Positions 38,170 through 61,159 of a stretch of DNA of 64,000 bases are shown piece by piece. How positions within the stretch are numbered: position 1 is the first letter of the stretch; every line of letters begins with the position of its first letter. Location of the stretch: assembly GCA_018400755.1 (NCBI GenBank), contig JAGYLU010000001.1:62001-126000 (forward strand), in the 5' to 3' direction. Both the position numbers and the translations under genes were made by a program. The notes below the pieces were generated by a model, which saw only the letters and a program-made list of their open reading frames with translations, was not told the origin of the DNA and searched no databases. The stretch comes from Acholeplasmataceae bacterium (GTDB lineage Bacteria; Bacillota_I; Bacilli_A; Acholeplasmatales; Acholeplasmataceae).

Positions 38170-39078
38170 ATGATCAATCTAGTCATCGATACTGACATCG
38201 GTAACGACTGTGACGATGCCGGTGCATTGGCGATTGCCCACAATCTGGCCAATCAATCAATGTGCGATATTCTGGCATTCACGAGCAATACATCACGTCG
38301 AGACGGTGCCCAGGCCATTCAAATCATCAATCATCATTATCATCGGACAGTGCCAGTTGGAATGACCAACCGTACGTCGTTTTTAGCTGAGGAACACGGT
38401 TACGGGGCATACTCCCGAGGTTTGGTCAGCGCATATGGACATTACCTGAACGGACAACCCATTGAAGATGCGGTCACGTTGTTGCGCCGAACCCTTGTGG
38501 CTTCACCCACAAAAGTTCGGATTGTCTGTATTGGTCCTCTCAATAACATCGCTGACTTGATGCGGTCTGAAGCGTGTCTCGAGTCTCATCTCAACGGACG
38601 TGAACTGATCAAAGAGAAAATGGAGTCTTTCGTCATCATGAGTGGGGAATTTCAGAAAAACCGCACTTTTGTCGTTGACGGACACCCAATGACTGCCGAA
38701 TGGAATATCATCCAGGATTTGTCTTCAGCACGGTATGTAATCAGTCATTTGGACATCCCAGCTGTCTTCATTCCTTATTCTGTCGGTCTGATTGAAACCG
38801 GACAATCCTTGTTTGATACACCCAATTACGATTCCCCCATCAAGTTATCCTATCAGATCCATAGCAATGGTCCGAGATACAGTTGGGACCCTATCACCAT
38901 CTATTATGCGGTCATGGGCGAAAGTGAGCTGTTCAACATCAGTGCTCCCGGAATCGTCTCGATTGATCAACAAGGGATTACCTCTTTCACAGAAGATTCC
39001 AGCGGAAAACATCGCTATGTGAGGCATTTGAATCATAAACAGACTGTCATCGACATCCTCAATGGTCTCATGTTATGA
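38170..39078 (+). CDS. Inosine/uridine-preferring nucleoside hydrolase-like protein
   Basis: 302 residues. The N-terminal DTDIGNDCDDAGAL is the calcium-binding aspartate cluster of the nucleoside hydrolase family (DTDxGxDxDDA). IVCIGPLNNIADLM and FVIMSGEF match the second ligand strand, and AEWNIIQDLSSARYV the substrate region. These enzymes hydrolyse N-ribosides, but family members in glycan loci may act on other N-glycosides. First gene of the locus, 24 bases after the -10; its stop overlaps the first permease ATG. A ribokinase-like gene at 51280 could take up released ribose. Confidence 0.82.
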   Translation: MINLVIDTDIGNDCDDAGALAIAHNLANQSMCDILAFTSNTSRRDGAQAIQIINHHYHRTVPVGMTNRTSFLAEEHGYGAYSRGLVSAYGHYLNGQPIEDAVTLLRRTLVASPTKVRIVCIGPLNNIADLMRSEACLESHLNGRELIKEKMESFVIMSGEFQKNRTFVVDGHPMTAEWNIIQDLSSARYVISHLDIPAVFIPYSVGLIETGQSLFDTPNYDSPIKLSYQIHSNGPRYSWDPITIYYAVMGESELFNISAPGIVSIDQQGITSFTEDSSGKHRYVRHLNHKQTVIDILNGLML

Positions 39079-39983
39079 AAATGAAAAAAACAAAACGGGA
39101 CCGATTGTCGTTCTACTTGTTCATCAGTCCTTGGATTATTGGGTTTTTGTTGTTCTCAATTTTGCCAATGATGACTTCACTCTATTACAGTTTCACAGAG
39201 GTCACAGTTCTTGGTTTAGGTAGAAGGACTCCTGAACTTGTTGGTTTTGCCAACTATCAAAGCGTCATATTTGATGATCCGATCTTCATGCAATCAATCA
39301 CAAATACGTTTGTTTATTCATTTGTCCGAGTATTTTCCGGTGTCTTTCTGGCATTGTTGCTCGCCGTCCTTCTCAATGGCAAGATACCGGGTAGAAATAT
39401 CTATAGAACACTGATTTATCTACCAGCGATTATTCCGATTGTCGGATCAGCCATGCTTTGGAAACAACTCTTTAGTACTGACTTCAGTTTGTTCAATTAC
39501 ATGATGTCCTGGATTGGGATTGCTCCTAGGGAGTGGCTGAACTACGACAATGCCATGAGTTCAGTCATCCTGATGAGCATATGGTCAGGATTGGGTCCAA
39601 CGATGATCATCTGTCTGGCCTCTTTGCAAAATGTTCCAAAGGATTTGGTTGAAGCCGCCGAGATTGATGGCGCTGGCAAAGTCAACCGGTTTCGTCACAT
39701 CACGATTCCGATGATCAGCCCGACCCTTGTCTATTTGCTTGTCACTGGGTTTATCGGTGCGCTTCAAGCGTATGCCGAAATGGATTTGTTGACCGGTGGC
39801 GGACCAGGGAACCGAACAACCACAATGGCCATGAATGTCGTCTTCCATGCTTTTGATGGTCGTGGCATGGGCTATGCGTCAGCTCAGGCATGGATCATCT
39901 TCATCATTATTCTGGTATTCTCAATCTTCTTCTTCAAAATCGTCAATAAACGCGCATATTACGAAAGTGCTGATGAACAATGA
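39075..39983 (+). CDS. Sugar ABC transporter permease, MalF type
   Basis: 302 residues, six membrane segments. Starts MKMKKTKRDRLSFYLFISPWIIGFLLF, typical of the family, and carries the EAA loop EAAEIDGAGKVNRFRHITIPMISP for contact with the ATPase. Overlaps both neighbours by ATGA. Forms a heterodimer with the next permease and receives sugar from the binding lipoprotein at 42117. No ATPase gene occurs in the locus. Confidence 0.93.
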   Translation: MKMKKTKRDRLSFYLFISPWIIGFLLFSILPMMTSLYYSFTEVTVLGLGRRTPELVGFANYQSVIFDDPIFMQSITNTFVYSFVRVFSGVFLALLLAVLLNGKIPGRNIYRTLIYLPAIIPIVGSAMLWKQLFSTDFSLFNYMMSWIGIAPREWLNYDNAMSSVILMSIWSGLGPTMIICLASLQNVPKDLVEAAEIDGAGKVNRFRHITIPMISPTLVYLLVTGFIGALQAYAEMDLLTGGGPGNRTTTMAMNVVFHAFDGRGMGYASAQAWIIFIIILVFSIFFFKIVNKRAYYESADEQ

Positions 39984-40828
39984 CCATAACGAAACGGCGT
40001 CGTGAACAAGTCAATCTCGGTGTTCGAACCACAGCATCAGTGCTGATTGCGACCATCATTGCCATCCCCTTTTTCTGGATGCTTTTATCATCTTTTCACG
40101 CATCATCTTTCGATCTGTTCCAGTCTCCGCCTAAGCTTCCCTCGCCTTTTTCACCCAGCAATTATCCCGAAGCGATCGCGGTCATCGACATGTTCAAACT
40201 GATTTTCAATACCCTGGTGATTGTCTTTTGGAATATGGTTCTCTCCATCATGTCATCGATTCTGGTCGCCTATGGCTTCGCCCGATTCAAAGTCAAGGAA
40301 AGCAATACCATCTTCTTTATTCTTCTTGCGACCATGATGCTTCCCTGGGTTGTCACTTTGGTTCCCTCATACATCATCTACACCCGTCTGGGATTTGTTG
40401 GCACAAGACTGCCTCTGATTCTTCCGGCAATCGGTGGAAACGCCTTCTTCATCTTCCTGCTCCGGCAATACATGCTAGGTATTCCCAAGAGTCTTGATGA
40501 AGCTGCGGAAATTGATGGCTGTTCGAAACTTGGGATTCTGTTTAAAATCATCCTTCCGCAATGCAAACCCATTCTCGCGACTCTCATTGTCTTTAGTTTT
40601 GTCGGATCTTGGAGTGACTATGTCGGTCCGCGAATCTATTTGGCCAGCAATCCTGGGTTGCAGACGCTATCCGTTGGATTGCGCTATTTCCAAAGTACCA
40701 CGTCTGTCATGCCATGGCATCTGTTGATGGCAGCCTGTGTGATATTCACAATTCCGATGGTCGTGACGATGTTTGTCTCTCAAAGAGCGTTCACCGAAGG
40801 CATTGTCACAACCGGATTGAAAGGATAA
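39980..40828 (+). CDS. Sugar ABC transporter permease, MalG type
   Basis: 282 residues with six membrane segments and EAA loop EAAEIDGCSKLGILFKIILPQCKP. The C-terminus AFTEGIVTTGLKG is the normal MalG family ending. Partner of the MalF-type permease; start codon overlaps its stop. Confidence 0.93.
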   Translation: MTITKRRREQVNLGVRTTASVLIATIIAIPFFWMLLSSFHASSFDLFQSPPKLPSPFSPSNYPEAIAVIDMFKLIFNTLVIVFWNMVLSIMSSILVAYGFARFKVKESNTIFFILLATMMLPWVVTLVPSYIIYTRLGFVGTRLPLILPAIGGNAFFIFLLRQYMLGIPKSLDEAAEIDGCSKLGILFKIILPQCKPILATLIVFSFVGSWSDYVGPRIYLASNPGLQTLSVGLRYFQSTTSVMPWHLLMAACVIFTIPMVVTMFVSQRAFTEGIVTTGLKG

Positions 40829-40830
40829 CG

Positions 40831-42120
40831 ATGATGATCAATATCGCAATCATCGGATTGGGTGCCCGTGGTGGTGAGGTCTATGGCGATTATATCAAAC
40901 AACATCCCGAACTCGCCAGGGTTGTCGCCATTGCTGATCCCAATCCAGAAAAAAGAGTCAAATACCAAACCTTGTTTGATCTTGATGATTCATGTGTGTT
41001 TGACAGTGGTGCATCTCTTTTGCAAGCCAAACCTGAAGTCCAAGCGGTCATTATCGCATCACCTGATCAAAGTCATCACGTTGACGCTCTCAAGGCAATC
41101 GAATCAGGCTATGACCTTCTTTTGGAAAAACCAATTGCTACCACCCTTGAAGCTTGCCTTGAAATCAGGGATGCCGCCGTCAGAAACCATCGTCGTGTTG
41201 TCCTCTGTCATGTCCTGAGATACGCACCTTTGTATCGAAAAATCAAGGACATCCTTGATGAGAAAATCATTGGAGACATCGTGTTGATGCATCAAATTGA
41301 GCATATCGGATACTGGCACTTTGCCCATTCATTCGTCCGTGGCAATTGGCGAAACTCACAGACATCGGCCCCGATAGTACTTGCCAAGACATCCCATGAT
41401 CTTGATATCATTCTTTGGTATATGGGTGTTGATGTTGATTCGGTTTCCTCATTTGGAGGTTTATATCACTTCCATCCGAAACATGCGCCATCCAATGCAC
41501 CTTCCCATTGCATCAAAGGATGTCCAATCAAAAACACCTGTCCTTATGATGCTGAAAAGATTTACATGAACAATTTCAAGGCCTACCCGCTTGAGCACAA
41601 CAAAGTGTGGCCCTTCACAGTTCTTGATGTCAATCCCACAGAGTCATCACTCAACAAGGCCTTGCTTGGCCCTTACGGAAGGTGTGTCTACCTCTGTGAC
41701 AATGATGTCATGGATCATCAGCTTGTCAATATCGCTTTCAAGAACGGTTCTCACGCCCATTTGACGCTTTCCGCATTCAGTGGAAGCACCCATCGCCAAA
41801 TTAAGATCATGGGTACCAAAGGTGAGATCAATGCTGACGATCTGACCCAAGTGATCACCGTGAAGACCTATGATGGCCGATTTGATGTCACGCCTGTGAT
41901 CTATGACATCCGGAAAATGAGTGAATCGCTGAAAGGGCATGGTGGTGGTGATGAACGGATGATGTATGATTTTCTCACCGGTCTTTCAAGTTCTGAGAAA
42001 ACATCGATTTCATCATCGATTGAGCACACTGTGACCAGTCATGTTCTCGCTTTCAAAGCCGAGGAATCACGTTGCCATCAAGGCACACGAATCACGATGA
42101 ATGAGGAGGATACACGATGA
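40831..42120 (+). CDS. Gfo/Idh/MocA-family oxidoreductase
   Basis: About 429 residues. N-terminal Rossmann fold IAIIGLGARGGEVYGDYI binds NAD(P); LLLEKPIATT contains the catalytic EKP lysine. An unusual Cys-rich insertion (HCIKGCPIKNTCPYDA) lies in the C-terminal domain, as in a subfamily found in glycan loci. Members oxidise sugars or, through transient oxidation, cleave glycosides; which applies here cannot be told. ATG 40831 follows AAAGGA, three bases after the permease stop; the frame is open further upstream but inside the permease. Confidence 0.87.
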   Translation: MMINIAIIGLGARGGEVYGDYIKQHPELARVVAIADPNPEKRVKYQTLFDLDDSCVFDSGASLLQAKPEVQAVIIASPDQSHHVDALKAIESGYDLLLEKPIATTLEACLEIRDAAVRNHRRVVLCHVLRYAPLYRKIKDILDEKIIGDIVLMHQIEHIGYWHFAHSFVRGNWRNSQTSAPIVLAKTSHDLDIILWYMGVDVDSVSSFGGLYHFHPKHAPSNAPSHCIKGCPIKNTCPYDAEKIYMNNFKAYPLEHNKVWPFTVLDVNPTESSLNKALLGPYGRCVYLCDNDVMDHQLVNIAFKNGSHAHLTLSAFSGSTHRQIKIMGTKGEINADDLTQVITVKTYDGRFDVTPVIYDIRKMSESLKGHGGGDERMMYDFLTGLSSSEKTSISSSIEHTVTSHVLAFKAEESRCHQGTRITMNEEDTR

Positions 42121-43493
42121 AAAAATCAATGATCATCATAGTCATCTTGCTGATGCTTGTCATGCTCTCAGGATGCAAGAAAAGGAAAGATATCACCGGC
42201 AATGATGGTGATATTGAACTGACATATTATGTCTGGGGAAACAATACCGAAGTCAATGCCATCCAAAATGTCATCGATCTCTTCGAAGCAGAAAATCCTG
42301 GCATCTTTGTCAACATCGAAAGAGCGGGAGACAACTACTTCCTTGATCTCAAGATGAAATTCGCAAGTGGTCGTGGCCCTGATGTGTTTCTCATGGATCC
42401 GGGTGAGATCAGACCATTTCTGGATGAAGACCTGATTCAAGAACTCGATGATTATATTGCCCAAAGCAGCAGTTTATCACTTGATGACCTTTGGGATGTC
42501 AACAACGGTTACCGGTTTGACGGCAATCAGATGGGTCAAGGTAGCCTATATGCTTTGATTAAGGACTGGACTCCTGACTTCATGTTGATCTATAACAAGA
42601 GTCAGGTCAACGCGTATCGTAATCAGGTCCCAGATGCTTTTCCTTACCTTGAATCTGATGAACCGATGACATGGAGCCAATTCAGCGCATTTGCTTCGGC
42701 GATGACCATCGGAAGCGGGACAACCGTCACCCGTTATGGAACAACAATGGATTTCGTCCCCTACAAACACTTGTATGAATGGATCCAAATGAGCGGAGAG
42801 TCGATGTTCATCGAGAATCAAACTGTCTTCAACAGAGACGCACAAGGTGTGATTGATGCTTTCGAATTCTTCATCTCCCTTCAGGAAGGTGCAAATGCGC
42901 CCGCGCCTTACAAAGGATCCTCATCATTGGCGGTAGGCGGGGAACGGTTCACACTTGGTACCGTATCAAGCGTCTTTCTTGGCCGATGGGCTTTTGTTGC
43001 CTATGGCTGGAACAATGTCGATTTTGACATCGGAATTCTTCCTCCTCCAGTCCCCGACAACAGAGTCACCGACGAGCATGGCAAACGCTTGCCATATGCT
43101 GGTGTGTCCGGGATGATTGCCAATGCCATCAATAAGGACTCAGAACACAAAGATGCCGCGTTCAAATTCATCGAATTCTACCAAACTGTCGGTATGGAAA
43201 GCCTGGCAGAACTCGGATACAACATTCCGGGAAACAAAACAATTGCCCGTGATGTCTTCTTGTCGGTTGAAGATCCAAAGATCAGAAGCATCAATGAGAT
43301 CTTCCTTGATGCTGCCGTCTCCTACTCATATCCAATCGAATATAATCCTTATCTATCAACGACAACGATTGAAAGAATCATCGGTAGAAGCATGGGTTTG
43401 TACTTTGAACGACGAGAGGGTCTAACAACCATCGAAGCACTTCTTGATCAGATTGAACAAGATCTCAACGACGAAATACGTCGTATAAGATAA
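42117..43493 (+). CDS. Sugar-binding lipoprotein of the ABC transporter
   Basis: 458 residues. MKKSMIIIVILLMLVMLSGC is a lipoprotein signal (lipobox LSGC). The mature protein follows the family 1 solute-binding pattern: ELTYYVWGNNTEVNAIQNVIDLFEAENPGI, FASGRGPDVFLMDPGEIRPF, LGRWAFVAYGWNNVDFDIGILPPP and GMIANAINKDSEHKDAAFKF. Captures an oligosaccharide outside the membrane and delivers it to the two permeases. Starts inside the stop of the oxidoreductase gene. Confidence 0.92.
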   Translation: MKKSMIIIVILLMLVMLSGCKKRKDITGNDGDIELTYYVWGNNTEVNAIQNVIDLFEAENPGIFVNIERAGDNYFLDLKMKFASGRGPDVFLMDPGEIRPFLDEDLIQELDDYIAQSSSLSLDDLWDVNNGYRFDGNQMGQGSLYALIKDWTPDFMLIYNKSQVNAYRNQVPDAFPYLESDEPMTWSQFSAFASAMTIGSGTTVTRYGTTMDFVPYKHLYEWIQMSGESMFIENQTVFNRDAQGVIDAFEFFISLQEGANAPAPYKGSSSLAVGGERFTLGTVSSVFLGRWAFVAYGWNNVDFDIGILPPPVPDNRVTDEHGKRLPYAGVSGMIANAINKDSEHKDAAFKFIEFYQTVGMESLAELGYNIPGNKTIARDVFLSVEDPKIRSINEIFLDAAVSYSYPIEYNPYLSTTTIERIIGRSMGLYFERREGLTTIEALLDQIEQDLNDEIRRIR

Positions 43494-43513
43494 ACATAGA
43501 AAAGGAGAAAATT

Positions 43514-46051
43514 ATGAAACGAGTGCTCATTTTAGCCGTTTTCCTTGCGGGTGGCATGCTCTTCTTCGGCTTTGACGCCTCAGCTTCCGGTCCACCGGTG
43601 AGATTCTATGAACCGGCGACAGTGTTCTTTGAAGATTTCGAAGGTGACACTGAGATTGCCCATTATGATCATTTATTCACTGGGCATGAAGCGGATATCA
43701 CAACCGAGAATGCCATTTCGGGAACCCAATCCTTGACGACTTACGTGGTGAACGCACCCGGTCAATGGGTTGACACGTTGGCCATCAAAAAGGATTTCAC
43801 CCAAATCGAGGGTGCCAATGCCTTTTTGGTGACAGGTAAGATTCAGACCTCAAACTATCAGCAAATGATGGTTGAGGTCAGAAAGAATTATGATGGAAAC
43901 ACCGTTGAAAACATGCCTTATGAATTCATTCTGACCATCAATGAGGCAAACAAGACCGTTCAAAGGCCTTGTTTCAATGGTTGGTACAATGCCTGTACGA
44001 CACTTGATCTTCACAATGAACTCTTCAGCATTGATTCAGAGGGTGTCATCGATTTTGAGTTTGAGTTTTCCTCAGACGAACCGGTCACCTTCACATTCAG
44101 AGGCGTCATCGCCGACATCAATCAGGTTGCTGTGATGACTTTCGATGATCTTGGCATATCTGAAAAACCGGTCATGACTGAAGACTTCGAGGTTGTCATG
44201 GGCAATTTCTGGGAAGGGACCGCCTTTTGGGCAAATGCTGGTGGTATTGAAACCGATCCCGTGAAGGTTGTTTCCGGAACTCAGTCACTTCGTTATGACA
44301 TCAATGACTGGGTCTTAGGTGGCATTACAAACACCAAGTTCCAACCACCACAGGAAGTTCCTCTCAAATTGACCTTCGAAGTCAGAGCTGTCAATGGAAA
44401 AGTCTTTCTGATGGCGACACCTTGGAGCCCTCTTTATTTCGAGTTCCAATATGACTTCGAAACCAATGTTTTGTCTCATCCGGGGCTTGCTGCCGCATCT
44501 GCAACCATGATTGGTGATGTGCTTCATGCTGAGATGTTCTTCACCGTTCCGGCATCGGTTGACCTTCAGACGTTCAACTTCTACGGAAGCAAACTCAACG
44601 GTGAGGCACCTGGCCACTACATCCTTGACAACTTTGCGGTCGAAGTGCTTGAAAAAGACCCGATGGTCGTTCCGGAGTTCAATGTCGGATACGCCATTAC
44701 CAAAACGGAAGCCATGGCCTATCGTACCAATTTGCTCGCTGCTGACATTCTCTCTGTCTCTCTTGGTGAAGAAATACTCGATGAAAGCGCTTATGTCCTT
44801 ACGGATTACGGCTTTGCCTTCCAAAACGCCTATCTTGATGGATTGGAAGCCCAACTTGGCCTTGAATTCACGCTTGAGACAACATATGGGACTCATGTGA
44901 TCCTTTTGGATCTCTATGATGTCCGTCCAATCGTCGTTCCTGATTCGCTTGTTTACCAGAAATCCCTACAACAAAACGTTGCTCTTGAGCTGGATCTGGT
45001 TGACCATGCATTCGTTTCATTGTCACTAAACGGTGCTTTGATTGGTCAAGACAAGTATGTGATTGAAGAGGACAGTCTTGTGCTTGATGCCGCTTTGTTC
45101 CTCGCCCTCGAGAATGGTGAACACCTTCTATCTGTTATTTCCGAAGGGGGAACAAGAACACTGTCCGTCACAGTTGAAACCGGTGGACCCGCAGTCCTTG
45201 AAGCATCCTATGACTATCAAAAAGGTGTGGACAATGACCTCGACATCGGAATCAATCTGACATCCGACCATATCACTGGTATCAGTGTTTCTGAAACCCC
45301 ACTTCAACCTGTGGACTACACTCTGAGCGAAGGCATCCTGACCCTCAATGACTCATTCTTGATGACCTTACCTGCTGGTTTGACAGAGTTCACCATTGAA
45401 ACTAGTACCCCAGGTATCACTTTTGATTTCAGCGTAAATGTTATGGTCTTTGGACCAATCACCGATGTTACTTCTGTGACTTACGATGTCCATATAGACG
45501 ATATCCTGGAGATCATCATCGACTTGAATGGTATGGCCATCACCACTGTGCTCCTTGATGATGTCACGCTTGAATCAGGCTACGAATACATTCTCGGTGC
45601 GCTTGAACTTGATGCCTCTGTCTTTTCCAATCTTGCAATAGGCACTTACACACTTTCAATCAGCACTGCCGGTGGCACTGTCGAAATCGACCTGTCCATT
45701 GTGAACTCAGCCTTTCTAAACGATGTCATCATCATCACTGTTCCATCTTCAGTCGTGACAATCACCAAAGGTGCCACATATGATCCTCTTGCCGACATCA
45801 CCCACAGCAATGCTGTCGGTGACGTGACTGTCAGTCTTTCCGATCATTTGAATGTCAATACCCCAGGCCGTTACGTTGTCACTGTTGTCATATCAGATGA
45901 ACAAGGAAACACATCTTTTGCTTATTATGTTGTCCGTGTGTCTGGTGTTCTCTATTCCGTCACCATCACTTATGACATACTGACCAAAGAAAGGGGTGTC
46001 ATTGATGAAGCGATTCTTGATTCTGATCGTAAGCATCATTTCAGTTTTTAG
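43514..46051 (+). CDS. Secreted multidomain glycan-binding-like protein
   Basis: 845 residues with an N-terminal signal peptide (MKRVLILAVFLAGGMLFFGFDASAS). Residues ~35-375 contain two jelly-roll-like modules each marked by EDFE near the start and GTQSL about 40 residues later, a carbohydrate-binding pattern. Residues ~385-720 hold about four ~80-residue X2/Ig-like repeats (LxGxxL...Y...xLxLxxxFLxxLxxGxxxL). A DUF5011/Ig-like domain (~725-810) closes it. No catalytic motif or anchor was seen. AAGGAG precedes the ATG. The 3' end overlaps the next ORF by 47 bases. Likely displays or captures the glycan for the neighbouring enzymes. Confidence 0.78.
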   Translation: MKRVLILAVFLAGGMLFFGFDASASGPPVRFYEPATVFFEDFEGDTEIAHYDHLFTGHEADITTENAISGTQSLTTYVVNAPGQWVDTLAIKKDFTQIEGANAFLVTGKIQTSNYQQMMVEVRKNYDGNTVENMPYEFILTINEANKTVQRPCFNGWYNACTTLDLHNELFSIDSEGVIDFEFEFSSDEPVTFTFRGVIADINQVAVMTFDDLGISEKPVMTEDFEVVMGNFWEGTAFWANAGGIETDPVKVVSGTQSLRYDINDWVLGGITNTKFQPPQEVPLKLTFEVRAVNGKVFLMATPWSPLYFEFQYDFETNVLSHPGLAAASATMIGDVLHAEMFFTVPASVDLQTFNFYGSKLNGEAPGHYILDNFAVEVLEKDPMVVPEFNVGYAITKTEAMAYRTNLLAADILSVSLGEEILDESAYVLTDYGFAFQNAYLDGLEAQLGLEFTLETTYGTHVILLDLYDVRPIVVPDSLVYQKSLQQNVALELDLVDHAFVSLSLNGALIGQDKYVIEEDSLVLDAALFLALENGEHLLSVISEGGTRTLSVTVETGGPAVLEASYDYQKGVDNDLDIGINLTSDHITGISVSETPLQPVDYTLSEGILTLNDSFLMTLPAGLTEFTIETSTPGITFDFSVNVMVFGPITDVTSVTYDVHIDDILEIIIDLNGMAITTVLLDDVTLESGYEYILGALELDASVFSNLAIGTYTLSISTAGGTVEIDLSIVNSAFLNDVIIITVPSSVVTITKGATYDPLADITHSNAVGDVTVSLSDHLNVNTPGRYVVTVVISDEQGNTSFAYYVVRVSGVLYSVTITYDILTKERGVIDEAILDSDRKHHFSF

Positions 46052-46391
46052 TCTGATTGCCTGTGAAAGCCCTGTAACCAATGATTTTCAGGCAACCGTT
46101 GTTTTTGAAGAAGTCACGATCGAAGCCATCACAGTTCATGCTGTGATCACAGAAGACATGACGAGTCTCGACGCTCTCGCATTCATTGCCAATGAGCTTG
46201 CGGTCGATACATATCAGAAGCATATTGAAACCATCGCATTGAATGCCATGACGCTGACTGTCTATCTCTATGACTCAACAGCATCATACAATGCCGAATC
46301 CGACACATACGGATTCATGGTCTTCAATTTGAATGCTGAAAACACTCCGGGCGTCAGTCACGCGAACAATCAACTGACCCTCGGGGCATAA
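46005..46391 (+). CDS. Small lipoprotein of unknown function
   Basis: 128 residues from MKRFLILIVSIISVFSLIAC, a lipoprotein signal with lipobox LIAC. The mature part is acidic and beta-rich with no recognised domain. ATG 46005 lies within the 3' end of the preceding gene; GAAAGGGG upstream is a plausible ribosome site. A frame change could join the two ORFs, but the clear signal peptide argues for a separate protein. Possibly a partner of the surface proteins on either side. Confidence 0.65.
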   Translation: MKRFLILIVSIISVFSLIACESPVTNDFQATVVFEEVTIEAITVHAVITEDMTSLDALAFIANELAVDTYQKHIETIALNAMTLTVYLYDSTASYNAESDTYGFMVFNLNAENTPGVSHANNQLTLGA

Positions 46392-46404
46392 AAGAGGAGA
46401 AACG

Positions 46405-51194: not shown

Positions 51195-51218
51195 ATAGTC
51201 TTAAGCCATTTAACAACA

Positions 51219-51253
51219 ACTTCCGGTGCGTGGTAAACAAACGCACCGGAAGT
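51219..51253 (+). terminator. Strong intercistronic hairpin
   Basis: A 13-bp perfect stem (ACTTCCGGTGCGT with ACGCACCGGAAGT) and 9-base loop lie 25 bases after the DUF4832 stop. No T-run follows, so it may be a partial terminator or a 3'-end stabiliser rather than a full stop. Confidence 0.6.
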
Positions 51254-51279
51254 CGTTATCGTCACAGGGAGGTTGACCT

Positions 51280-52148: not shown

Positions 52149-52936
52149 AAACCGAACTACAGTCATTTATCCACTACAGTCATCCTCCTCTCGACTATGT
52201 CCTTCCTCAGGCTCATAGTTGTTACGAAATCGTCTTTTACAAGAATGGCCATGGCCGAACCACCGTCAACAATGAAATCTACAATTATCATGACATGGAC
52301 ATGGTGATCATCCCTCCCAACATCGTCCATGATGAGAAATCAGAAGTATCCACTGAAGTCTATTGTGTGCTGTTCAAACTCGATGGAATCGATCTTCCAT
52401 CCGCCTTTTACACACATGAACCTGGCTTTTCGGCAGCTATTTTTGAAAAGATGGTTGAGATCAAAGAGTCATATTTGGCACGTGAGCCTTATTTTGAGTC
52501 CTATATCAGCAGTCTTATCCAGCAAATCGTCGTCATGTTGTTGCGTCATGAGAATGCGGCGACATCATCTGTCAGCATGGATGAGCAAAACAAACGGGCC
52601 ATTGAACTGTCCAAGAAACTGCTCAAAGAGAAAATTCACTTGAACACTGATTTTTCTGTCATTGCTGAAAATATAGGCTACAGTTATGACTACTTTCGGC
52701 ACTTGTTCACAGCCTATGTCGGTATGAGTCCCAAACAATATCAGCTTGAGCAAAAAATGAACAAAGCCAAAGATCTTTTGCTCAACACCGGCATGCCCGT
52801 CTATGAAATCGCCAAGATCTGTGGTTTCAGCAACGGTATCGCATTCAATGATTTCTTTAAACGCAAACTGAAAATCACTCCTTTGAGATTCCGACATCTC
52901 GGTCTAGAGCAAGTCGACAAAGTCCAATTAGAATGA
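52145..52936 (+). CDS. AraC-family transcriptional regulator
   Basis: 263 residues. N-terminal cupin sugar-sensing domain (HSCYEIVFYKNGHG...MDMVIIPPNIVHDEK) and C-terminal double helix-turn-helix: FSVIAENIGYSYDYFRHLFTAYVGMSPKQYQL and PVYEIAKICGFSNGIAFNDFFKRKLKITPLRFR. It sits inside the locus, so it probably controls the promoter at 38113 via the repeated ACCATTTTGATGA elements, since AraC proteins commonly bind direct repeats. GGAGG precedes the ATG, and the start overlaps the ribokinase stop. Confidence 0.9.
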   Translation: MKTELQSFIHYSHPPLDYVLPQAHSCYEIVFYKNGHGRTTVNNEIYNYHDMDMVIIPPNIVHDEKSEVSTEVYCVLFKLDGIDLPSAFYTHEPGFSAAIFEKMVEIKESYLAREPYFESYISSLIQQIVVMLLRHENAATSSVSMDEQNKRAIELSKKLLKEKIHLNTDFSVIAENIGYSYDYFRHLFTAYVGMSPKQYQLEQKMNKAKDLLLNTGMPVYEIAKICGFSNGIAFNDFFKRKLKITPLRFRHLGLEQVDKVQLE

Positions 52937-52943
52937 GGCCATC

Positions 52944-54038
52944 ATGACCCAAATCATAACACTGTTTGCCATTGAAGGCACACCCATCAGCTGTGAGCGA
53001 TACGGTGAGGGTCATATCAATGACACCTTTCTCGTCAAATGTGAGAACCCCAACCGGTCATACATCCTTCAAAGAATCAACAATTTTGTTTTCAAAGACA
53101 TCCCTTCACTGATGGAAAACTATGCCATGGTAACCTCATATATGGCCTATGTCTTGATCAATCAAGGGATCAATCCCCATGACCGAGTCCTTGAACTCAT
53201 ACCGACAACATCAGGTGATGCGTTCGTTTATTGCGACCGTGGGTATTTTCGGATGCTCCGTTTTGTCGCAGACTCAATCACTCTCCAAAGGGCTCAGAAT
53301 GCCACACAGATGATGCTTGCAGGACATGCGTTTGGAACATTCCAAAACCTTTTGTCGTCTCTAGACGCAAGCAAACTCCATGAGACCATCCCGGATTTCC
53401 ATCATACGCCCAAACGTTACTCTCAGTTTCTGGTTGCCCTTGAAAAAGCAACGCCTGAACGTCTAGGAAAGGCTTCTGACCTGATTACGTATGTGCTCAG
53501 TCAAAAACATGTCATCTCCATCATCCAAGATGCGCTTGATGACCAAAGTATCAAACTTAGGGTGACTCATAATGACACCAAACTAAACAACCTGCTCTTC
53601 GCACAAGACCTAGAATCGGTCAAATGTGTCATTGACCTCGACACCATCATGCCTGGAAGCTTGTTATTTGATTTTGGGGATGCAATCCGCTTTGGCTGCA
53701 ATACAGCCCCTGAGGATGATCCTGATTCCAACCATATCGCTTTTGATATGCCCTATTTCATCGCGTACGCAACAGGATTCATCAGTGCTTTGAAAGAAAC
53801 CTTGACAAACAAGGAAGCTTCCATGCTCGTCGATGGCGCGCTTATGATGACTTTCGAGGTCGGAATCCGTTTCTTGACTGACTATCTTCAAAACGATCCA
53901 TACTTCAAAACCCATCGTCCTGACCACAATCTTGACCGGGCATTGAACCAACTGACCTTATACCGAGTCATGCGTGAACAAGAAAGTGCGATGCGCCAAC
54001 AAATTGACGTGCTTAGAAGGAGTCTTCTTCATGGCTGA
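52944..54038 (+). CDS. N-acetylhexosamine 1-kinase-like (APH-fold) phosphotransferase
   Basis: 364 residues, near the length of bifidobacterial NahK. GEGHINDTFLV is the nucleotide-loop start, YILQRINNFVFKDI the lysine strand, VTHNDTKLNNLLF the Brenner-type catalytic loop (H-x-D-x4-N) and VIDLDTIMPGSLLFDFGD the metal-binding Asp segment. NahK phosphorylates GalNAc/GlcNAc at C1 in the galacto-N-biose/lacto-N-biose pathway. Here it sits immediately before a class II GalT, the same pairing as in that pathway. Overlaps the GalT start. Substrate inferred, not seen. Confidence 0.8.
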   Translation: MTQIITLFAIEGTPISCERYGEGHINDTFLVKCENPNRSYILQRINNFVFKDIPSLMENYAMVTSYMAYVLINQGINPHDRVLELIPTTSGDAFVYCDRGYFRMLRFVADSITLQRAQNATQMMLAGHAFGTFQNLLSSLDASKLHETIPDFHHTPKRYSQFLVALEKATPERLGKASDLITYVLSQKHVISIIQDALDDQSIKLRVTHNDTKLNNLLFAQDLESVKCVIDLDTIMPGSLLFDFGDAIRFGCNTAPEDDPDSNHIAFDMPYFIAYATGFISALKETLTNKEASMLVDGALMMTFEVGIRFLTDYLQNDPYFKTHRPDHNLDRALNQLTLYRVMREQESAMRQQIDVLRRSLLHG

Positions 54039-55497
54039 TCTATCAACATGCCTGATTGAGTACGCAATCAAATATCTGCATTTCAATCCAAAAGATCAGA
54101 ACAAGACATCAGGGATATTGTCATCACTGATTGGTTCTTCGGTTTCTTTTGATGCTGTTCCTGAGACACCAATCCCATTTATCAATGTGTTCAAAGACCT
54201 CATCAAGCGCGAATCTCCCATTCAGTTCGAACGTACTGTTGATCACATCTTCGCACTATTGACACCTTCTCAGCCCAATGTCAATCAGACGTTTTGGTCT
54301 TTATATGACAAGAGTCCCCAGACGGCAACCTCGTTCCTCTATACGCTTGGTCATTTGAACCATTATATCCAAAGCGACAAGATTCGTCTGAATCGACATT
54401 ACCACAGTCATGATCTGATCGTCACCATCAATCTCTCAAAAGAAGAAAAAGATCATCGGCGTGTGTTGGCAGACATGAAACAATCGGCATCTGTTTATCC
54501 AATGTGCCCCTTATGCTATGAGAACGTTGGCTATCCTGGAATAGGTGAACAACCTCCCCGGGAAACGCTCAGAGTGGCCCATATGACGCTTGATGGTGAT
54601 CCTTGGTTTATGCAGTTTTCGCCATATCCATATTTCGAGGAACATGCGATCTTCATCGATCGGATCCACCGCCCAATGAACGTTGATGTCAAAGCCTTGA
54701 GGCAACTTGTTGACATCGTTGATCTCTTCCCCCATTACTTTGTCGGATGCAATGCTGCGATGCCCATCACCGGAGGTTCAATCCTGTCACATGCCCACTT
54801 CCAAGGGGGCAAGAATGTTGGTTTCCCCTTGCTCAAAGCCCCTTTTGAACAGGCCTTTTCGATGCCTGATTATCCTGATGTGATTGCTGAAACGGTTGAT
54901 TGGCCGACCTTTGTCGTCCGTTTGACATCGGTTGATCGAGACCAACTCGTGAACGCATCAATGACCATCCTCAAGACTTGGAAATCCTTTGAGTCAAAAG
55001 ACATCAATCTGATTCCAGAAACCGATGGGGTACCTCATCATGGAATGGCGGCAATCATACACAAACCCGATGACCGTTATGTGATGCATCTGGTTTTGCG
55101 GTCGAACCTGACCAATCATGATTACCCTGAAGGCGTTTTCCATGCTCATCCAAAACATCATCACATCAAAAAGGAGGGCGTCGGTCTGATTGAAGCGCTA
55201 GGTATGTTCATCCTTCCAGGGAGACTGGCCTCGGTCATGGATACTTTCGTGAAGATGGGTAATCATCAGGATTTCATTGTTCTAAAAGAAGAACATCCAA
55301 TCCATGAGGATTGGTTCAACCGTTTCAAGACAATAACAACCTATGACCCAACAACCCTTCATCAATTGTTTCTAACCGAACTAGAGCATGTCTGTCAAGA
55401 CATTCTTCATCACATATCCGTGTTCAAAAACGATACGTCCGGTGTCCGTGCAAAACAACAATTCCTTTCTCTTATATCCGGAGGACAACATGTTTAA
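54031..55497 (+). CDS. galT: Class II galactose-1-phosphate uridylyltransferase-like enzyme (GalT)
   Basis: 488 residues, the length of Firmicutes-type GalT (class II). MCPLCYENVGYPG is the Cys pair block, ILSHAHFQGGKNVGFPL holds the H-x-H-x-QGG catalytic motif, and HGMAAIIHKPD is present. It exchanges UMP between UDP-hexose and Gal-1-P or HexNAc-1-P; coupled with the upstream kinase, a HexNAc-1-P substrate is likely. ATG 54031 follows AAGGAG and overlaps the kinase stop; the frame is open 57 bases upstream within the kinase. Confidence 0.9.
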   Translation: MADLSTCLIEYAIKYLHFNPKDQNKTSGILSSLIGSSVSFDAVPETPIPFINVFKDLIKRESPIQFERTVDHIFALLTPSQPNVNQTFWSLYDKSPQTATSFLYTLGHLNHYIQSDKIRLNRHYHSHDLIVTINLSKEEKDHRRVLADMKQSASVYPMCPLCYENVGYPGIGEQPPRETLRVAHMTLDGDPWFMQFSPYPYFEEHAIFIDRIHRPMNVDVKALRQLVDIVDLFPHYFVGCNAAMPITGGSILSHAHFQGGKNVGFPLLKAPFEQAFSMPDYPDVIAETVDWPTFVVRLTSVDRDQLVNASMTILKTWKSFESKDINLIPETDGVPHHGMAAIIHKPDDRYVMHLVLRSNLTNHDYPEGVFHAHPKHHHIKKEGVGLIEALGMFILPGRLASVMDTFVKMGNHQDFIVLKEEHPIHEDWFNRFKTITTYDPTTLHQLFLTELEHVCQDILHHISVFKNDTSGVRAKQQFLSLISGGQHV

Positions 55498-56806
55498 GCT
55501 GACATTCATTGGTGCTGGAAGCACCATCTTTGCCAAAAATGTGATTGGTGATATCCTGATCACACCTGAACTCAAAGACTATGAAATCGCACTATTTGAT
55601 ATTGATCCCACAAGACTTGATGATTCCTATCAAATTCTCTCTGCCATGAATAAGCGATATGGAGAGAGGGCTCGTATCTTGACGTATGCTGACCGTAAAA
55701 AAGCCCTTGACCAGGCGGATTTCATCGTCAATGCCATTCAAGTCGGAGGCTATGAACCAGCCACTGTCACCGACTTTGAGATTCCCAAACGATTCGGGCT
55801 TAGACAGACCATTGGTGACACCCTCGGGATCGGCGGCATCTTTCGAGCACTTCGGACCATACCGGTCTTGGAAGAGATTGCTCTTGAGATCAAAGAGGTG
55901 TGCCCGAACGCTTTGTTTTTGAACTATACCAATCCGATGGCGATTCTAACCGGATATCTAGAACGTTATTTGGGCATCAGAACCATTGGGCTCTGCCACA
56001 GTGTCCAGGCATGCGTGCCCGAACTCTTTAGAACACTCGAGATGGACGATCTGCTTGAAGGACATCAATCAACCATCGCTGGCATCAATCACCAGGCTTG
56101 GCTTCTGAACATCTGTGATCAAGACGGAACAGACCTTTATCCATTAATCAAGACAAGGTCCAAGAATCCAAACTATGACAAAACCTGGGATCTTGTCAGG
56201 CATGACATGATGGATAAGTTTGGATACTATCTGACAGAATCATCCGAGCACACCGCCGAGTATGTCCCTTTCTACATCAAATCGACACACCCAGAACTGA
56301 TTGAGAGATTCCATATTCCTCTAGATGAGTATCCAAGACGCTGTGAACAACAGATCAGAGATTGGAATGCCTTGAAAGTGACGATTCTTCAAGATGATCA
56401 CCTTGAACACGTTGCCAGCAACGAATACGCCCTTTCAATCATCAAAGCGGTCATCTTCAATGAGCCGGTCACCATTCACGGTAATGTCATGAATCAAGGA
56501 TTCATTCCCAACCTTCCAAAAGATGCCTGTGTTGAAGTTCCATGCACCATTGATCAAACTGGCATTCACCCCCATATGATGGATGCGCTGCCGCACCAAT
56601 GCGCAGCACTCAATATGACCAACATCAATGTTCAGCTTTTGACCATGGAAGGTGCGTACCAAAGAAACAAATCCATGATTGCTCAGGCCGCATTTCTGGA
56701 TCCCCATACCGGAAGTGAACTCTCGATGGATGAGATCAAATCTCTGGTTGACGCCTTATTCGATGCTCACCACCAATATCTTCCCCCATATAAGGAGATG
56801 CCATGA
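55490..56806 (+). CDS. GH4-family NAD-dependent glycosidase, alpha-galactosidase-like
   Basis: 438 residues. N-terminal dinucleotide fold FIGAGSTIFAKNVIGDI; NAIQVGGYEPAT; GIGGIFRALRTIP; NYTNPMAILTGYL; GLCHSVQACVPEL, where the CHSVQ Cys/His pair binds the catalytic Mn2+ as in MelA; and GINHQAWLL. GH4 enzymes cleave glycosides by NAD-assisted oxidation. CHSVQ favours alpha-galactosidase or alpha-galacturonidase over alpha-glucosidase. No signal peptide, so it acts in the cytoplasm on imported sugar. ATG 55490 follows CGGAGG and overlaps galT. Confidence 0.88.
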   Translation: MFKLTFIGAGSTIFAKNVIGDILITPELKDYEIALFDIDPTRLDDSYQILSAMNKRYGERARILTYADRKKALDQADFIVNAIQVGGYEPATVTDFEIPKRFGLRQTIGDTLGIGGIFRALRTIPVLEEIALEIKEVCPNALFLNYTNPMAILTGYLERYLGIRTIGLCHSVQACVPELFRTLEMDDLLEGHQSTIAGINHQAWLLNICDQDGTDLYPLIKTRSKNPNYDKTWDLVRHDMMDKFGYYLTESSEHTAEYVPFYIKSTHPELIERFHIPLDEYPRRCEQQIRDWNALKVTILQDDHLEHVASNEYALSIIKAVIFNEPVTIHGNVMNQGFIPNLPKDACVEVPCTIDQTGIHPHMMDALPHQCAALNMTNINVQLLTMEGAYQRNKSMIAQAAFLDPHTGSELSMDEIKSLVDALFDAHHQYLPPYKEMP

Positions 56807-58158
56807 TTACACACATCACATCAAATGAGACCCTTCTCTTGAACAAAGGCATGGGCTGGGTCATGCATACGTCCATCGAAAAGACCTATATCGATGACAA
56901 TGCCTTCATCCCAAATGACAAAATCCAAGTGGTCGCCCTTCTTTCAAGCTGGGCGAAACTTGAACCGATTGAGGGGACATTCGATTTTCAAGATCTGGAT
57001 GATGCCGTCGAACATTGGAGTCGTCTGGGTAAGGAGATCCATCTACGGATCTCAACCGATCCGATGATCTACCGACAAGAAGCCTGTGGGGTTCTCTAAT
57101 GGGTTTTTGAGACCTATCATGTCCCCTATCAGACAAAACTCATCTATGGCCTAGAAGCCAAGTTCCCTGATTACTTGCATCCCGTCTATCTGGCCAAGGT
57201 TCACCTGTTTATCGATGCCTTGTGTGCCCGTTACGAACGATATCCAAACATTGTTCAAATGGATTTGCGGGGTTATGGGGAATGGGGAGAATGGCATTCC
57301 GGATTCATGCATGCTGACCTTCCCACCCATGTCGAAGCCCTTCGTGCCATTATCCGAACTTGGGATCACGCGTGCAAAGGACGTATTCCGTTGGTATTAT
57401 CAGGGTCGTATGAATGGCGCCGTGACCAAAAACTGGACCTCTTCGCCCCTGCAAGCTATGATGCGTTCAAATATCAGTCCGCTTTTGATTATGCACTCAC
57501 CAAAGAAAACATCACGTTCCGTCGCGATGGTGTTGGCGGTGCCCTGAAAGTCAATGACTATCTGCTCTTTTTGGAATACTTCGAGAAACATCACCGCTTG
57601 CCGCTGACAACCGAGTTCTTTATATCCTATGATCGTCAGAAAGAGGCGGAAGACGGTGTCAGAGGATACTTTGCCGAAGATGCATTGGAAGAAGCACTTG
57701 CCCTGCATCCGAACTACATGATGCTTATGTGGGATAGTGAGGCATTTTTCCGGGAGCGACAAGATCTGATTGATCACGGACTCAGGCGCATGGGTTATCG
57801 GTTATATCCAAGTACCATTCAGACAACAAAAACCGGTGATATGATCACACTCAGACATACGTGGTCAAATGATGGTGTCGGACGTCTCTATCTTCTTCAT
57901 GAGGTTTTATTCAAACTCACCGATGAGGAAGGACATCACATATCAACCACCGATGATCAGGTGAACTTAAGCGATGTGACCGAGGCACAAAAACAGACGT
58001 ATATGACCCATCTGCGAACTGACGGTCTCAAAGGTGCTATCACTCTATCTGTTGGTATCCGTCTCAAACAGGATGGAAGCATGGTCAAATGTCCGCTTGA
58101 AAATGTATCGGATGACGGTTTTTACCCGCTCATCACCCTTGATCACTTGAATTCATGA
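56803..58158 (+). pseudogene. Cytosolic DUF4832-type putative glycosidase with one in-frame TAA
   Basis: 452 codons in a single frame, interrupted only by TAA at 57097-57099 (codon 99). LNKGMGWVM matches NNPGMGWVT of the surface paralogue, LLSSWAKLEPIEGTFDF matches LSTSWARIEVEEGVYDW, RGYGEWGEWHSGF matches RGWGNWGEWHSGF, and LPLTTEFFISY matches LPLLGEYSSG. Conserved Glu163 and Glu271 are candidate acid/base and nucleophile. The paralogue has GTPQW where this reads GVL-stop-W, so a Gln codon may have become TAA. No signal peptide. A product beginning at an internal start after the stop would lack the first barrel strands. Overlaps the GH4 stop; NagB follows. Confidence 0.75.
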
Positions 58159-58165
58159 GGAAAGG

Positions 58166-58927
58166 ATGACAATCGACATGCGTGTGATGATTGGTACAAA
58201 AACCATCATTGATGATCAGGTATCAAAGATCATCATCAATCTTGTCAACACCAATCCAAAGGCCGTCTTAGGGCTTGCGACAGGGTCAACACCTGCTGGA
58301 GTTTATGCTGCTCTGGTCAACGATCACATTACCCATCGGACTGATTATCATCTGATCAAGACCATCAATCTTGATGAGTATGCGAATCTTGATACTGACC
58401 ATCCCAACAGTTATCGCACCTATATGAATAACCATTTATTTGATCACATCAATATCCGACTCGAGCATACCCATTTCCCCGATAGTACCCCATTTGTTGC
58501 TTCGTTTCTCGAACAACACCCTGTGAATCTTCAATTACTGGGCATTGGTAACAATGGTCACATCGGATTCAATGAACCTGGGACACCTTTCGAGAGCAGT
58601 GTCAGACTTGTTTCGTTATCAGATGACACCCTCAGTCAAAATGCCAGATACTTTGAGACACCGGATCAGATGCCAAAGAAGGCATACACACTCGGTATTT
58701 CAGACATCCTCAAAGTTCATCAAATCATCTTGATTGCCACCGGACCTCACAAAGCCAGAATCATCAAGCAGATGATTGAAGGTCCGATCACACCACAACT
58801 TCCAGCATCTGTCCTAAGACGGCATCCTGATGTCACCGTTTATCTTGATCATGATGCCGCAGCTTTACTTGATCAATCACTTGATATCTATACCAAAGGA
58901 GGGGTTGCACTTGACATCATTGCCTAG
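58166..58927 (+). CDS. nagB: Glucosamine-6-phosphate deaminase (NagB)
   Basis: 253 residues. GLATGSTPAGVY (phosphate loop), TINLDEYANLD (catalytic Asp), and GIGNNGHIGFNEPG (His/Glu active-site loop) are complete. Converts GlcN-6-P to fructose-6-P and ammonia. A GalN-6-P relative (AgaS/AgaI) is possible but the motifs are nagB-like. AGGAAAGG precedes the ATG. NagA, its usual partner, is absent; a PIG-L deacetylase lies two genes downstream. Confidence 0.9.
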   Translation: MTIDMRVMIGTKTIIDDQVSKIIINLVNTNPKAVLGLATGSTPAGVYAALVNDHITHRTDYHLIKTINLDEYANLDTDHPNSYRTYMNNHLFDHINIRLEHTHFPDSTPFVASFLEQHPVNLQLLGIGNNGHIGFNEPGTPFESSVRLVSLSDDTLSQNARYFETPDQMPKKAYTLGISDILKVHQIILIATGPHKARIIKQMIEGPITPQLPASVLRRHPDVTVYLDHDAAALLDQSLDIYTKGGVALDIIA

Positions 58928-60293
58928 ACTTCCTCTTGATCCGGATTTCAAACCTATCGCTTTGATCATGAAAGACATGATGGAACAAGCCCAATCTTCT
59001 GAACAAAAACGTGTCATGAGGATTGCCATCCAGCAAGAATTACGAGTTTGTGCTCATTGGATTCCTCTTCCCGATGCATGCACCATGAGTTCGGATCACG
59101 ACCGTTTCATCGAATCCTACGTCAAGACCCTCTTATGGTTGTACGGAGGTCACACGATCTATGTTGACGCCCCCGAGCGGATCTTCAACCGAATCAAACA
59201 AGCCTTCTCACTCTCAGGAAACCGTTCATTTGATGTCAAATTCATGAGTCAAATCTATCAAAGACCTTTTGATGTCATCAAGTCCGATGATCCGATGCGA
59301 TTTGAGACAAATGACCAATCGTCTTCTATTGGAAGGCACATGGATGGATGTCGGATTGGCTTCGATGCAGGGGGAAGCGACCGAAAAGTGTCCGCCGTGA
59401 TGAATGGGGTCGTCATCTATAGCGAAGAAGTGACATGGAGTCCAAAGACAGAATCGGATCCAAACTACCATCTTGAGGGCATCATGTCAGCACTTTCAAC
59501 CGCTGGTTCCAAATTACCTAGAGTGGATGCTGTAGGCATCAGTTCCGCAGGTATCTACATCGATGATGAGACAAGAGTCGCGTCTCTATTCATGAGTGTT
59601 GGACCAAGCGATGTCGATAAGGTCAGAACCATCTATAGGGATGCTGTTAGAAACACCTGGGGTGATGTGCCTTTCGTTGTCGTCAATGACGGTGATGTCA
59701 CCGCATTGTCTGGGTCAATCGGATTGAACCGAAACAACATCCTCGGCATTGCGATGGGCACAAGTGAGGCGGCGGGATATATCAACCCTAAGGGATCTAT
59801 CACCGGTTGGCTGAATGAACTTGCGTTCGTCCCAATTGATATGAATCCCGAGGCTGTCAGAGATGAGTGGTCAAACGACATCGGTTGTGGTGTCAAGTAT
59901 CTGTCTCAGGATGCGGTGATCCGATTGTCCAAACGGGCCGGGATTGACATCAATGACAATTTGACGGCGGCTCAAAGTCTAGAATATGTCCAAAAATTGT
60001 TGCGTGAGGGAAACAGAGAAGCCGAAGAGGTATTCAAAACCATCGGAGTCTATCTTGGCTATGCCATTCTTTACTACCATCATTTCTATGGCATGGATGC
60101 CTTGCTGATTCTTGGAAGGGTTACTTCCGGACTAGGTGGGGATTTGATTCTCTCAAACGCAAAAGCAGTGCTTGAACATGAGAATCCTAGTCTCTTCAAT
60201 CGCTTGTTTATCACACTCCCAGATGAAAAAAGCCGTCGCATCGGACAGTCCGTGGCTGCGGCAAGTTTGCCCAAGATCGGAGGCATCAAATGA
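58911..60293 (+). CDS. ROK/BadF-like sugar kinase with N-terminal extension, TTG start
   Basis: About 461 residues from TTG 58911, chosen because AAAGGAGG (58896-58903) sits seven bases before it; upstream frame extension runs inside nagB. Residues ~150-461 form an ASKHA kinase: RIGFDAGGSDRKVSAVMNG (phosphate 1), VGISSAGIYID, VVVNDGDVTALSGS (Asp motif), GIAMGTSEAAGYI (phosphate 2, atypical) and GRVTSGLGGDLIL. The first ~145 residues are a helical domain not found in simple ROK kinases. Likely makes an amino-sugar 6-phosphate for NagB; specificity unknown. Overlaps nagB by 17 bases. Confidence 0.75.
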   Translation: MTSLPRLPLDPDFKPIALIMKDMMEQAQSSEQKRVMRIAIQQELRVCAHWIPLPDACTMSSDHDRFIESYVKTLLWLYGGHTIYVDAPERIFNRIKQAFSLSGNRSFDVKFMSQIYQRPFDVIKSDDPMRFETNDQSSSIGRHMDGCRIGFDAGGSDRKVSAVMNGVVIYSEEVTWSPKTESDPNYHLEGIMSALSTAGSKLPRVDAVGISSAGIYIDDETRVASLFMSVGPSDVDKVRTIYRDAVRNTWGDVPFVVVNDGDVTALSGSIGLNRNNILGIAMGTSEAAGYINPKGSITGWLNELAFVPIDMNPEAVRDEWSNDIGCGVKYLSQDAVIRLSKRAGIDINDNLTAAQSLEYVQKLLREGNREAEEVFKTIGVYLGYAILYYHHFYGMDALLILGRVTSGLGGDLILSNAKAVLEHENPSLFNRLFITLPDEKSRRIGQSVAAASLPKIGGIK

Positions 60294-61144
60294 TTTCCTT
60301 GAATGTTCATGCTGACCTGTTTGTCCCTAATGGTGATGACCCAAACACCATCATCCCAAAAACAACACACATGGCGATTGCCGCCCATCAAGATGATATT
60401 GAGATCATGGCTTATGATGGCATTCTCAAATGTTTTCACAACAAAGAATACTCATTTTTTGGTGTGGTCGTCACCGATGGTGCTGGAAGTTCACGAATTG
60501 GTCCCTATGGGGCATACACGAATGAAGAGATGGCTGAAATCAGAAAGGCTGAGCAACGAAAAGCTGCTGTGATTGGAGAATATGGGGCTTTGGCACAATT
60601 GAACTATCCCTCATCAACCATCAAGGATCCCAATGACCTAGAATGTATTGATGACCTCACCCATCTGATCAAATTTGCCAAACCAGATGTGATTTACACG
60701 CACAATCTTGCTGATAAGCATGATACTCATATCGGGGTTGCTGTCAAAGTGATCAAAGCGATCAGGTCTTTGTCTGAAGATGAACGCCCAAAATCATTAT
60801 ATGGATGCGAGGTATGGCGAAACCTTGATTGGCTTCAGGATGAGGACAAAGTGGTTTTTGATGTCAGTGATCAACCAAAACTTGCTCAAGATCTGATTGA
60901 AGTCTTTGACTCACAGATTTCTGGTGGTAAGCGTTATGACGCAGCGACCCTCGGCCGAAGACTTGCCAATGCGACGTATCATCAGTCACATCAATCCGAT
61001 CTTGGCAATGCTTTGATCTTTGCGATGGATATGACACCTCTGATCCAGGATGACACACTTGATATCACAAGATATGTACTATCATATATCGATCGGTTCA
61101 AGAACGATGTTGAGCGAAAAATCAAATCCCAAATCTCCAAATAG
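60290..61144 (+). CDS. PIG-L/LmbE-family deacetylase
   Basis: 284 residues. AAHQDDIEIMAYDG is the zinc site (AHPDDxE with Gln for Pro), DGAGSS follows the second strand, and YTHNLADKHDTHIGVAVKVIKAI gives the distal His ligand (HxxDxHxxH-like). Family enzymes remove N-acetyl groups from GlcNAc conjugates or free GlcNAc. Coupled by ATGA to the kinase gene; with no nagA in the locus, this is the best candidate for the deacetylation step. Ends just before a strong terminator. Confidence 0.85.
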   Translation: MISLNVHADLFVPNGDDPNTIIPKTTHMAIAAHQDDIEIMAYDGILKCFHNKEYSFFGVVVTDGAGSSRIGPYGAYTNEEMAEIRKAEQRKAAVIGEYGALAQLNYPSSTIKDPNDLECIDDLTHLIKFAKPDVIYTHNLADKHDTHIGVAVKVIKAIRSLSEDERPKSLYGCEVWRNLDWLQDEDKVVFDVSDQPKLAQDLIEVFDSQISGGKRYDAATLGRRLANATYHQSHQSDLGNALIFAMDMTPLIQDDTLDITRYVLSYIDRFKNDVERKIKSQISK

Positions 61145-61159
61145 CTTTCATAAAAGACA

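Follow-up and report, generated by a model that had tools for sequence, protein, structure and literature searches.

A seventeen-gene operon of unusual composition in an Acholeplasmataceae bacterium: DUF4832 proteins, interrupted genes and a possible route for galactose and amino-sugar glycans

The 64,000-nucleotide stretch of Acholeplasmataceae DNA presented above (hereafter the window, whose positions are used throughout) carries an operon of 17 genes at 38170-61144. Its gene content, protein families, module structure and assembly lesions were determined, and we infer from them an inducible catabolic operon for an oligo- or polysaccharide containing alpha-galactosyl residues and amino sugars; this assignment, in which substrate, step order and regulation are all deduced, has in our judgement about an even chance of being right. 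The locus is a composite, in which a rare uptake and GH4 core is joined to a NahK-GalT pair and to a NagB/ROK-like/PIG-L tail typical of the family. Its most interesting part is the DUF4832 proteins. Three of the operon genes are interrupted in the assembly.

Gene content and putative control elements of the operon

Calling of open reading frames (ORFs) placed all 17 genes on the + strand, with many junctions overlapping by 4 bp (ATGA type) or more and the rest closely packed. This bore out an earlier note on the same DNA, made from the sequence letters, which had described mostly overlapping genes of one strand. The families named in that note (uptake, surface proteins, DUF4832, GH4, an N-acetylhexosamine (HexNAc) 1-kinase-like protein, class II GalT, NagB, a kinase and PIG-L) were likewise recovered by profile searches; its gene list had left out the nucleoside-hydrolase-family, Gfo/Idh/MocA, AraC and ribokinase-type genes. 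The features are given below, with percent identities to the counterparts in a distant metagenome-assembled genome (MAG) labelled Haloplasma contractile isolate B5_bin.1.

37905-37947, no strand: inverted pair of the operator-like motif AACCATTTTGATGA, two half sites
38115-38128, +: third copy of AACCATTTTGATGA, about 40 bp 5' of the first gene; candidate regulator site, perhaps for AraC
38170-39078, +: nucleoside-hydrolase-family protein, DTDxGxDxDD-type metal motif kept (PF01156, E 1.9e-18; 43%)
39075-39983, +: ATP-binding cassette (ABC) sugar permease 1 (PF00528; 68%)
39980-40828, +: ABC sugar permease 2 (PF00528; 69%)
40831-42120, +: Gfo/Idh/MocA oxidoreductase (PF01408, E 3e-20; 51%)
42117-43493, +: solute-binding lipoprotein of the ABC importer (PF01547; 66%)
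43514-46051, +: secreted surface protein with CBM_X2 and Ig-like modules (PF03442, E 5e-13; 30%)
45996-46391, +: small lipoprotein of 131 amino acids (lipobox in the translation), no counterpart in the Haloplasma operon
46405-48921, +: surface DUF4832 protein, N-terminal fragment with signal peptide, repeats, transmembrane hairpin and first part of a GH42-like barrel
48882-51194, +: surface DUF4832 protein, C-terminal fragment with the remaining barrel (both invariant Glu) and C-terminal modules (PF16116, E 3.6e-14)
51215-51257, +: internal RNA hairpin, 17-nt arms, -26 kcal/mol (z -5.9)
51280-52148, +: PfkB-family (ribokinase-type) kinase gene, split by a frameshift (PF00294 in both pieces)
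52145-52936, +: AraC-family regulator (PF12833, E 2e-20)
52944-54038, +: NahK-type N-acetylhexosamine 1-kinase (E 1.7e-83 to PDB 4ocu, a solved NahK; HND and DLD motifs kept)
54031-55497, +: class II UDP-glucose-hexose-1-phosphate uridylyltransferase-like protein, GalT2 (NCBIfam, 419 bits against a cut-off of 628)
55490-56806, +: GH4 glycosidase of alpha-galactosidase type, CHSV motif at residue 169 (PRK15076, 596.1 bits against a cut-off of 486)
56803-58158, +: cytosolic DUF4832 protein, no signal peptide, interrupted by TAA (PF02449/PF16116)
58166-58927, +: NagB-like protein of the glucosamine-6-phosphate deaminase family (TIGR00502, 217.6 bits against a cut-off of 236.9)
58911-60293, +: ROK-like sugar kinase with an extra N-terminal domain, start codon uncertain (by alignment; ROK match in 14/14 members)
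60290-61144, +: PIG-L family deacetylase, zinc motif AHQDD + HDTH (AHxDD ... HxxH), above the Pfam cut-off (PF02585, E 5e-17)
61152-61200, +: intrinsic terminator, 12-pair stem (arms 61152-61170 and 61182-61200) and T run (fold z -5.7)

Upstream of the first gene lies a 700-bp gap with divergent genes, and all three exact copies of AACCATTTTGATGA in the 64 kb fall within it (0.12 expected with at most one mismatch). A AACCATTTTGATGA-like motif common to the operon and the Haloplasma locus was not found above chance. The terminator stem stands directly 3' of the PIG-L gene, in line with the one terminator named in the earlier note; the strong internal hairpin, which sits between the surface DUF4832 gene and the PfkB gene, had gone unmentioned.

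Distribution and composite origin

The complete 17-gene set was found in none of 100 relatives, and a ten-gene core was found in the same order in one genome, the Haloplasma MAG, among 392 phylum-wide and 395 class-wide genomes. These scans cover a sample of species, and the pattern scan can pick up a relative only if short exact peptides are shared, so more copies of the core may exist. The question of conservation in relatives raised by the earlier note thus received a divided answer, negative for the whole set and positive for the core in one distant genome. The shared order in the MAG operon (JAENYC010000040.1) comprises the nucleoside hydrolase, two permeases, MocA, the solute-binding protein, the surface protein, the surface DUF4832 protein, PfkB, AraC and GH4, at about 30-69% identity. 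The small lipoprotein, NahK, GalT2, cytosolic DUF4832, NagB, ROK-like kinase and PIG-L genes are missing from it, and its genes are intact.

The remaining modules were encountered elsewhere. Elsewhere in the order NahK adjoins GalT2, with GH36 and GH123 as neighbours in one genome (G088), PL8 and heparinase-like genes in another (G051) and a GalE-like gene following in a third (G063). Many genomes of the family carry the NagB-like, ROK-like and PIG-L genes side by side, at about 40-65% identity; there the module stands alone or near other genes (NagZ- and MurQ-like in some genomes), whereas here it forms the operon tail. Because the modules are found separately in relatives, the locus is composite, and the rare core (nucleoside-hydrolase-like to AraC, plus GH4) would have been joined with the NahK-GalT pair and the NagB/ROK-like/PIG-L module. 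If true, this would show bacteria near the mollicutes building glycan pathways from portable modules. An empty-site comparison with two genomes of the genus showed no insertion site, since both lack the left-flank gene. No match to GalT2 was obtained in a scan of viral contigs.

No description of this system was found in the literature on the GH4 motif and the modules. The earlier note had proposed an unusual combination and an undescribed system; the combination is supported, and the novelty was overstated, as the modules occur separately in relatives.

It was also observed that a PL8 lyase and heparinase-like and pectate-lyase-like proteins are encoded near a GalT2-NahK pair (L054, 483-15105).

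The predicted catabolic route

The removal of alpha-linked galactose (Gal) by GH4, the NahK-GalT pair and the amino-sugar exit module together fit a glycan of galactose plus amino sugar. The CHSV motif of the GH4 protein is one that we take to be the signature of the alpha-galactosidase type within GH4. The ROK-like kinase scored 18.7 bits with Pfam ROK, short of the gathering score of 22.9, and all 14 orthologues matched (best E 1.3e-9); the CxCGxxGCxE zinc motif of ROK kinases was not seen in its alignment. A separate locus with NagB, NagA and phosphotransferase system (PTS) genes is present elsewhere in the genome, so the PIG-L module is additional to the canonical route.

On this assignment, the surface proteins would bind the glycan and trim it outside the cell by means of the DUF4832 barrel, and the ABC importer would take in the fragments. 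GH4 would then strip terminal alpha-Gal by its NAD/metal redox route, and the cytosolic DUF4832 barrel would cut the remainder. NahK and the class II GalT may activate the freed HexNAc and Gal via sugar 1-phosphates and UDP-sugars, with PIG-L, the ROK-like kinase and the NagB-like protein converting the amino sugar to fructose-6-phosphate. As for the substrate proposed in the earlier note, its Gal plus amino-sugar chemistry is supported by GH4, NahK-GalT and NagB/ROK-like/PIG-L; a link to host glycans, mucin or glycosaminoglycans is unsupported, and nothing favours these over algal, plant or bacterial polysaccharide.

DUF4832 as a putative glycosidase family

Both DUF4832 proteins of the window passed the PF16116 gathering score (53.5 and 30.2 against 29.2 bits), and the C-terminal fragment of the surface protein was 59% identical to the intact 1585-residue Haloplasma protein. 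Thirty diverse DUF4832 proteins, taken from this genome, the Haloplasma MAG, rumen Bacteroidales, Lachnospiraceae, Treponema, Fibrobacter and others, had W50, G159, W161, G162, E163, H165, R240, P267 and E271 invariant (numbering of the cytosolic protein). E163 and E271 are retained in both window copies despite the interrupted genes. When the DUF4832 profile was compared with PDB chains, GH42/GH35 enzymes matched (best E 6e-7). AlphaFold2 models of the proteins were (beta/alpha)8 barrels (mean predicted local distance difference test, pLDDT, 75 and 71; predicted template-modelling score, pTM, 0.79 and 0.78), and Foldseek with these models returned TIM-barrel glycosidases of GH14, GH35, GH42 and GH5 at template-modelling (TM) scores of 0.4-0.54, a likeness at the level of the fold only. 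In the models E163 lies 7-9 residues past strand 4 and E271 at the end of strand 7, which would put them near the acid/base and nucleophile places of clan GH-A. DUF4832 looks like a TIM-barrel glycosidase, so far uncharacterised, in which two Glu are invariant.

The surface protein has, in its window and Haloplasma versions alike, a central hairpin of two transmembrane segments with a basic loop between them, so its binding modules and its barrel could both face outwards. We tentatively suggest, with clearly less confidence than the catabolic assignment itself, that DUF4832 may be an uncharacterised glycoside hydrolase or phosphorylase family, working outside on a double-headed protein anchored by the membrane hairpin and inside as a paralogue, and supplying a new alpha-Gal/HexNAc route where NahK-GalT works in parallel with PIG-L, the kinase and NagB. 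In the literature, DUF4832 was reported in Pel loci as an accessory gene without explanation (PMC7112168), and it is present in a dockerin protein (PMC7480376). If true, the suggestion would place in its genomic setting a widespread uncharacterised family of gut, rumen and Pel-polysaccharide loci, and would give it an active site that can be tested.

Two further arrangements were observed. Another family of the order has a fusion of DUF4874-DUF4832 with an alpha/beta hydrolase (L102, 8417-10420), and tandem DUF4832 pairs occur in rumen Bacteroidales and a MAG labelled Elusimicrobiaceae, very similar across the three records.

Interrupted genes in the assembly

Two frameshifts and one in-frame TAA interrupt the operon, and these had been missed by the earlier note, which treated the genes as whole; reading raw sequence alone can list interrupted genes as functional. 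The surface DUF4832 gene is frameshifted near 48,800 (pieces 46405-48921 and 48882-51194), the PfkB gene near 51,720 (pieces 51280-51741 and 51738-52148), and the cytosolic DUF4832 gene carries one TAA at 57097-57099. In a scan with codon preferences learned from the uninterrupted genes of the operon, the preference switched frame near 48,800 and 51,720 and continued straight across the TAA. One-ORF intact versions of the surface DUF4832 and PfkB genes were found in the Haloplasma MAG.

Other accounts of the lesions were considered and rejected. Programmed frameshifting was not favoured, as no slippery heptamer was seen by eye near either site and the Haloplasma copies need none. A reassigned stop codon was discarded since the internal TAA occurs in this one gene only and other genes stop normally. 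Genome-wide frameshift noise does not agree with the mostly normal coding coverage elsewhere in the genome, nor with the count in the regions checked of 5 split genes against about 62 full-length matches; local errors may nevertheless have occurred. The lesions are either recent decay of the pathway or local sequence errors: three of the 5 splits lie in the operon and one is galK, which suggests decay of the pathway, and single-base errors in a draft of 239 contigs (95% complete) are the possible alternative.

The only galK detected in the genome was itself split by a frameshift (13649-13885 and 13819-14838 of its locus), and it adjoins galM and a second class II galT.

Alternative explanations

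Several points weigh against the reading of the locus as an alpha-galactosyl, amino-sugar operon. Besides the three interrupted genes, the GalT2 and NagB-like proteins fall under their curated equivalog cut-offs (GalT2 reached 391 bits, E 9e-117, against 650 for galT_2 TIGR01239), so their exact substrates are not fixed by the family call. No match to the GalE profile TIGR01179 was obtained in the 95%-complete genome while controls matched, and the gene could lie in the missing part; with galK split as well, a complete Leloir route is not demonstrated. No amino-sugar gene is present in the Haloplasma core, whose own substrate may therefore lack amino sugars, and the core's nucleoside-hydrolase-like enzyme and ribokinase are not explained by a Gal/HexNAc substrate. 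These two enzymes would find a place if the substrate were a bacterial or algal glycan or glycoside with alpha-Gal and ribose, from which the nucleoside-hydrolase-like protein frees ribose for phosphorylation by PfkB and GH4 removes Gal, the HexNAc genes serving further residues. The intact Haloplasma PfkB (306 amino acids) does pass the TIGR02152 ribokinase cut-off (317.5 against 299.65), and its operon also encodes a nucleoside-hydrolase-family protein that keeps the metal motif. However, PfkB is interrupted in this assembly, and the nucleoside hydrolase scored far under every specific NCBIfam cut-off, so that its substrate may be something else; we consider a ribose-containing glycan unlikely.

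A stronger contender, which we would place somewhat short of an even chance, is that the interrupted genes are true pseudogenes and the pathway is being lost rather than running, which is compatible with the alpha-galactosyl, amino-sugar assignment for its past function. In addition to the clustering of splits in the operon and galK, the two sampled same-genus genomes have no DUF4832, and the coding signal is intact on both sides of each lesion, as in a recent one. On the other hand, every lesion is of single-base scale, within the reach of sequencing or assembly error in such a draft, and all other operon genes are open. Quite improbable, in our view, is a disguised galacto-N-biose/lacto-N-biose (GNB/LNB) pathway, in which the DUF4832 barrel instead of a GH112 phosphorylase splits Gal-HexNAc disaccharides ahead of NahK and GalT2. 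The closeness of NahK and GalT2 to a TIM-barrel protein with two invariant Glu and the lack of a GH112 protein in the operon agree with it, but the cytosolic DUF4832 gene is interrupted and nothing seen favours phosphorolysis over hydrolysis. The genome-wide search for GH112 gave no match with a profile that was silent in every control genome too.

Neighbouring regions of the window

A divergent cluster at 34541-37468 encodes a protein with a B12-binding domain, a GGDEF protein and a third protein that matches no Pfam family; relatives of this third protein were found in another genus of the family and not in the two same-genus genomes searched. About 6 kb at 5900-11900 have low GC (0.35-0.37 against about 0.46) and no ORF above 150 amino acids, and have the appearance of DNA that is degraded or of foreign origin. 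An LD-carboxypeptidase-like gene is present as fragments in different frames at 4666-5775, one pair being flagged as split against a relative. The lipoprotein encoded at 31040-32668 combines Listeria-Bacteroides repeats with a sulfatase-modifying-factor (FGE-like) domain.

Comparison with known systems

The DUF4832 barrel shares its TIM-barrel fold and a weak profile similarity with the GH42/GH35 beta-galactosidases; however, identity is about 10-15%, and DUF4832 has an invariant GNWGEWH ... P...E signature of its own. At the level of the operon, a sugar ABC importer, a NahK-type kinase and a hexose-1-phosphate uridylyltransferase are common to the locus and to the bifidobacterial GNB/LNB operon (lnpABCD plus ABC importer), and use of Gal-HexNAc units is plausible here too. 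In contrast to the bifidobacterial operon, no GH112 gene is present in the operon and GalE was found neither there nor in the genome, whereas the locus has in addition genes for GH4, DUF4832, PIG-L, a ROK-like kinase, a nucleoside-hydrolase-like protein and MocA. The kind of system, an ABC-fed glycan catabolic operon, is familiar and not categorically new; it is the combination of genes that is unusual.

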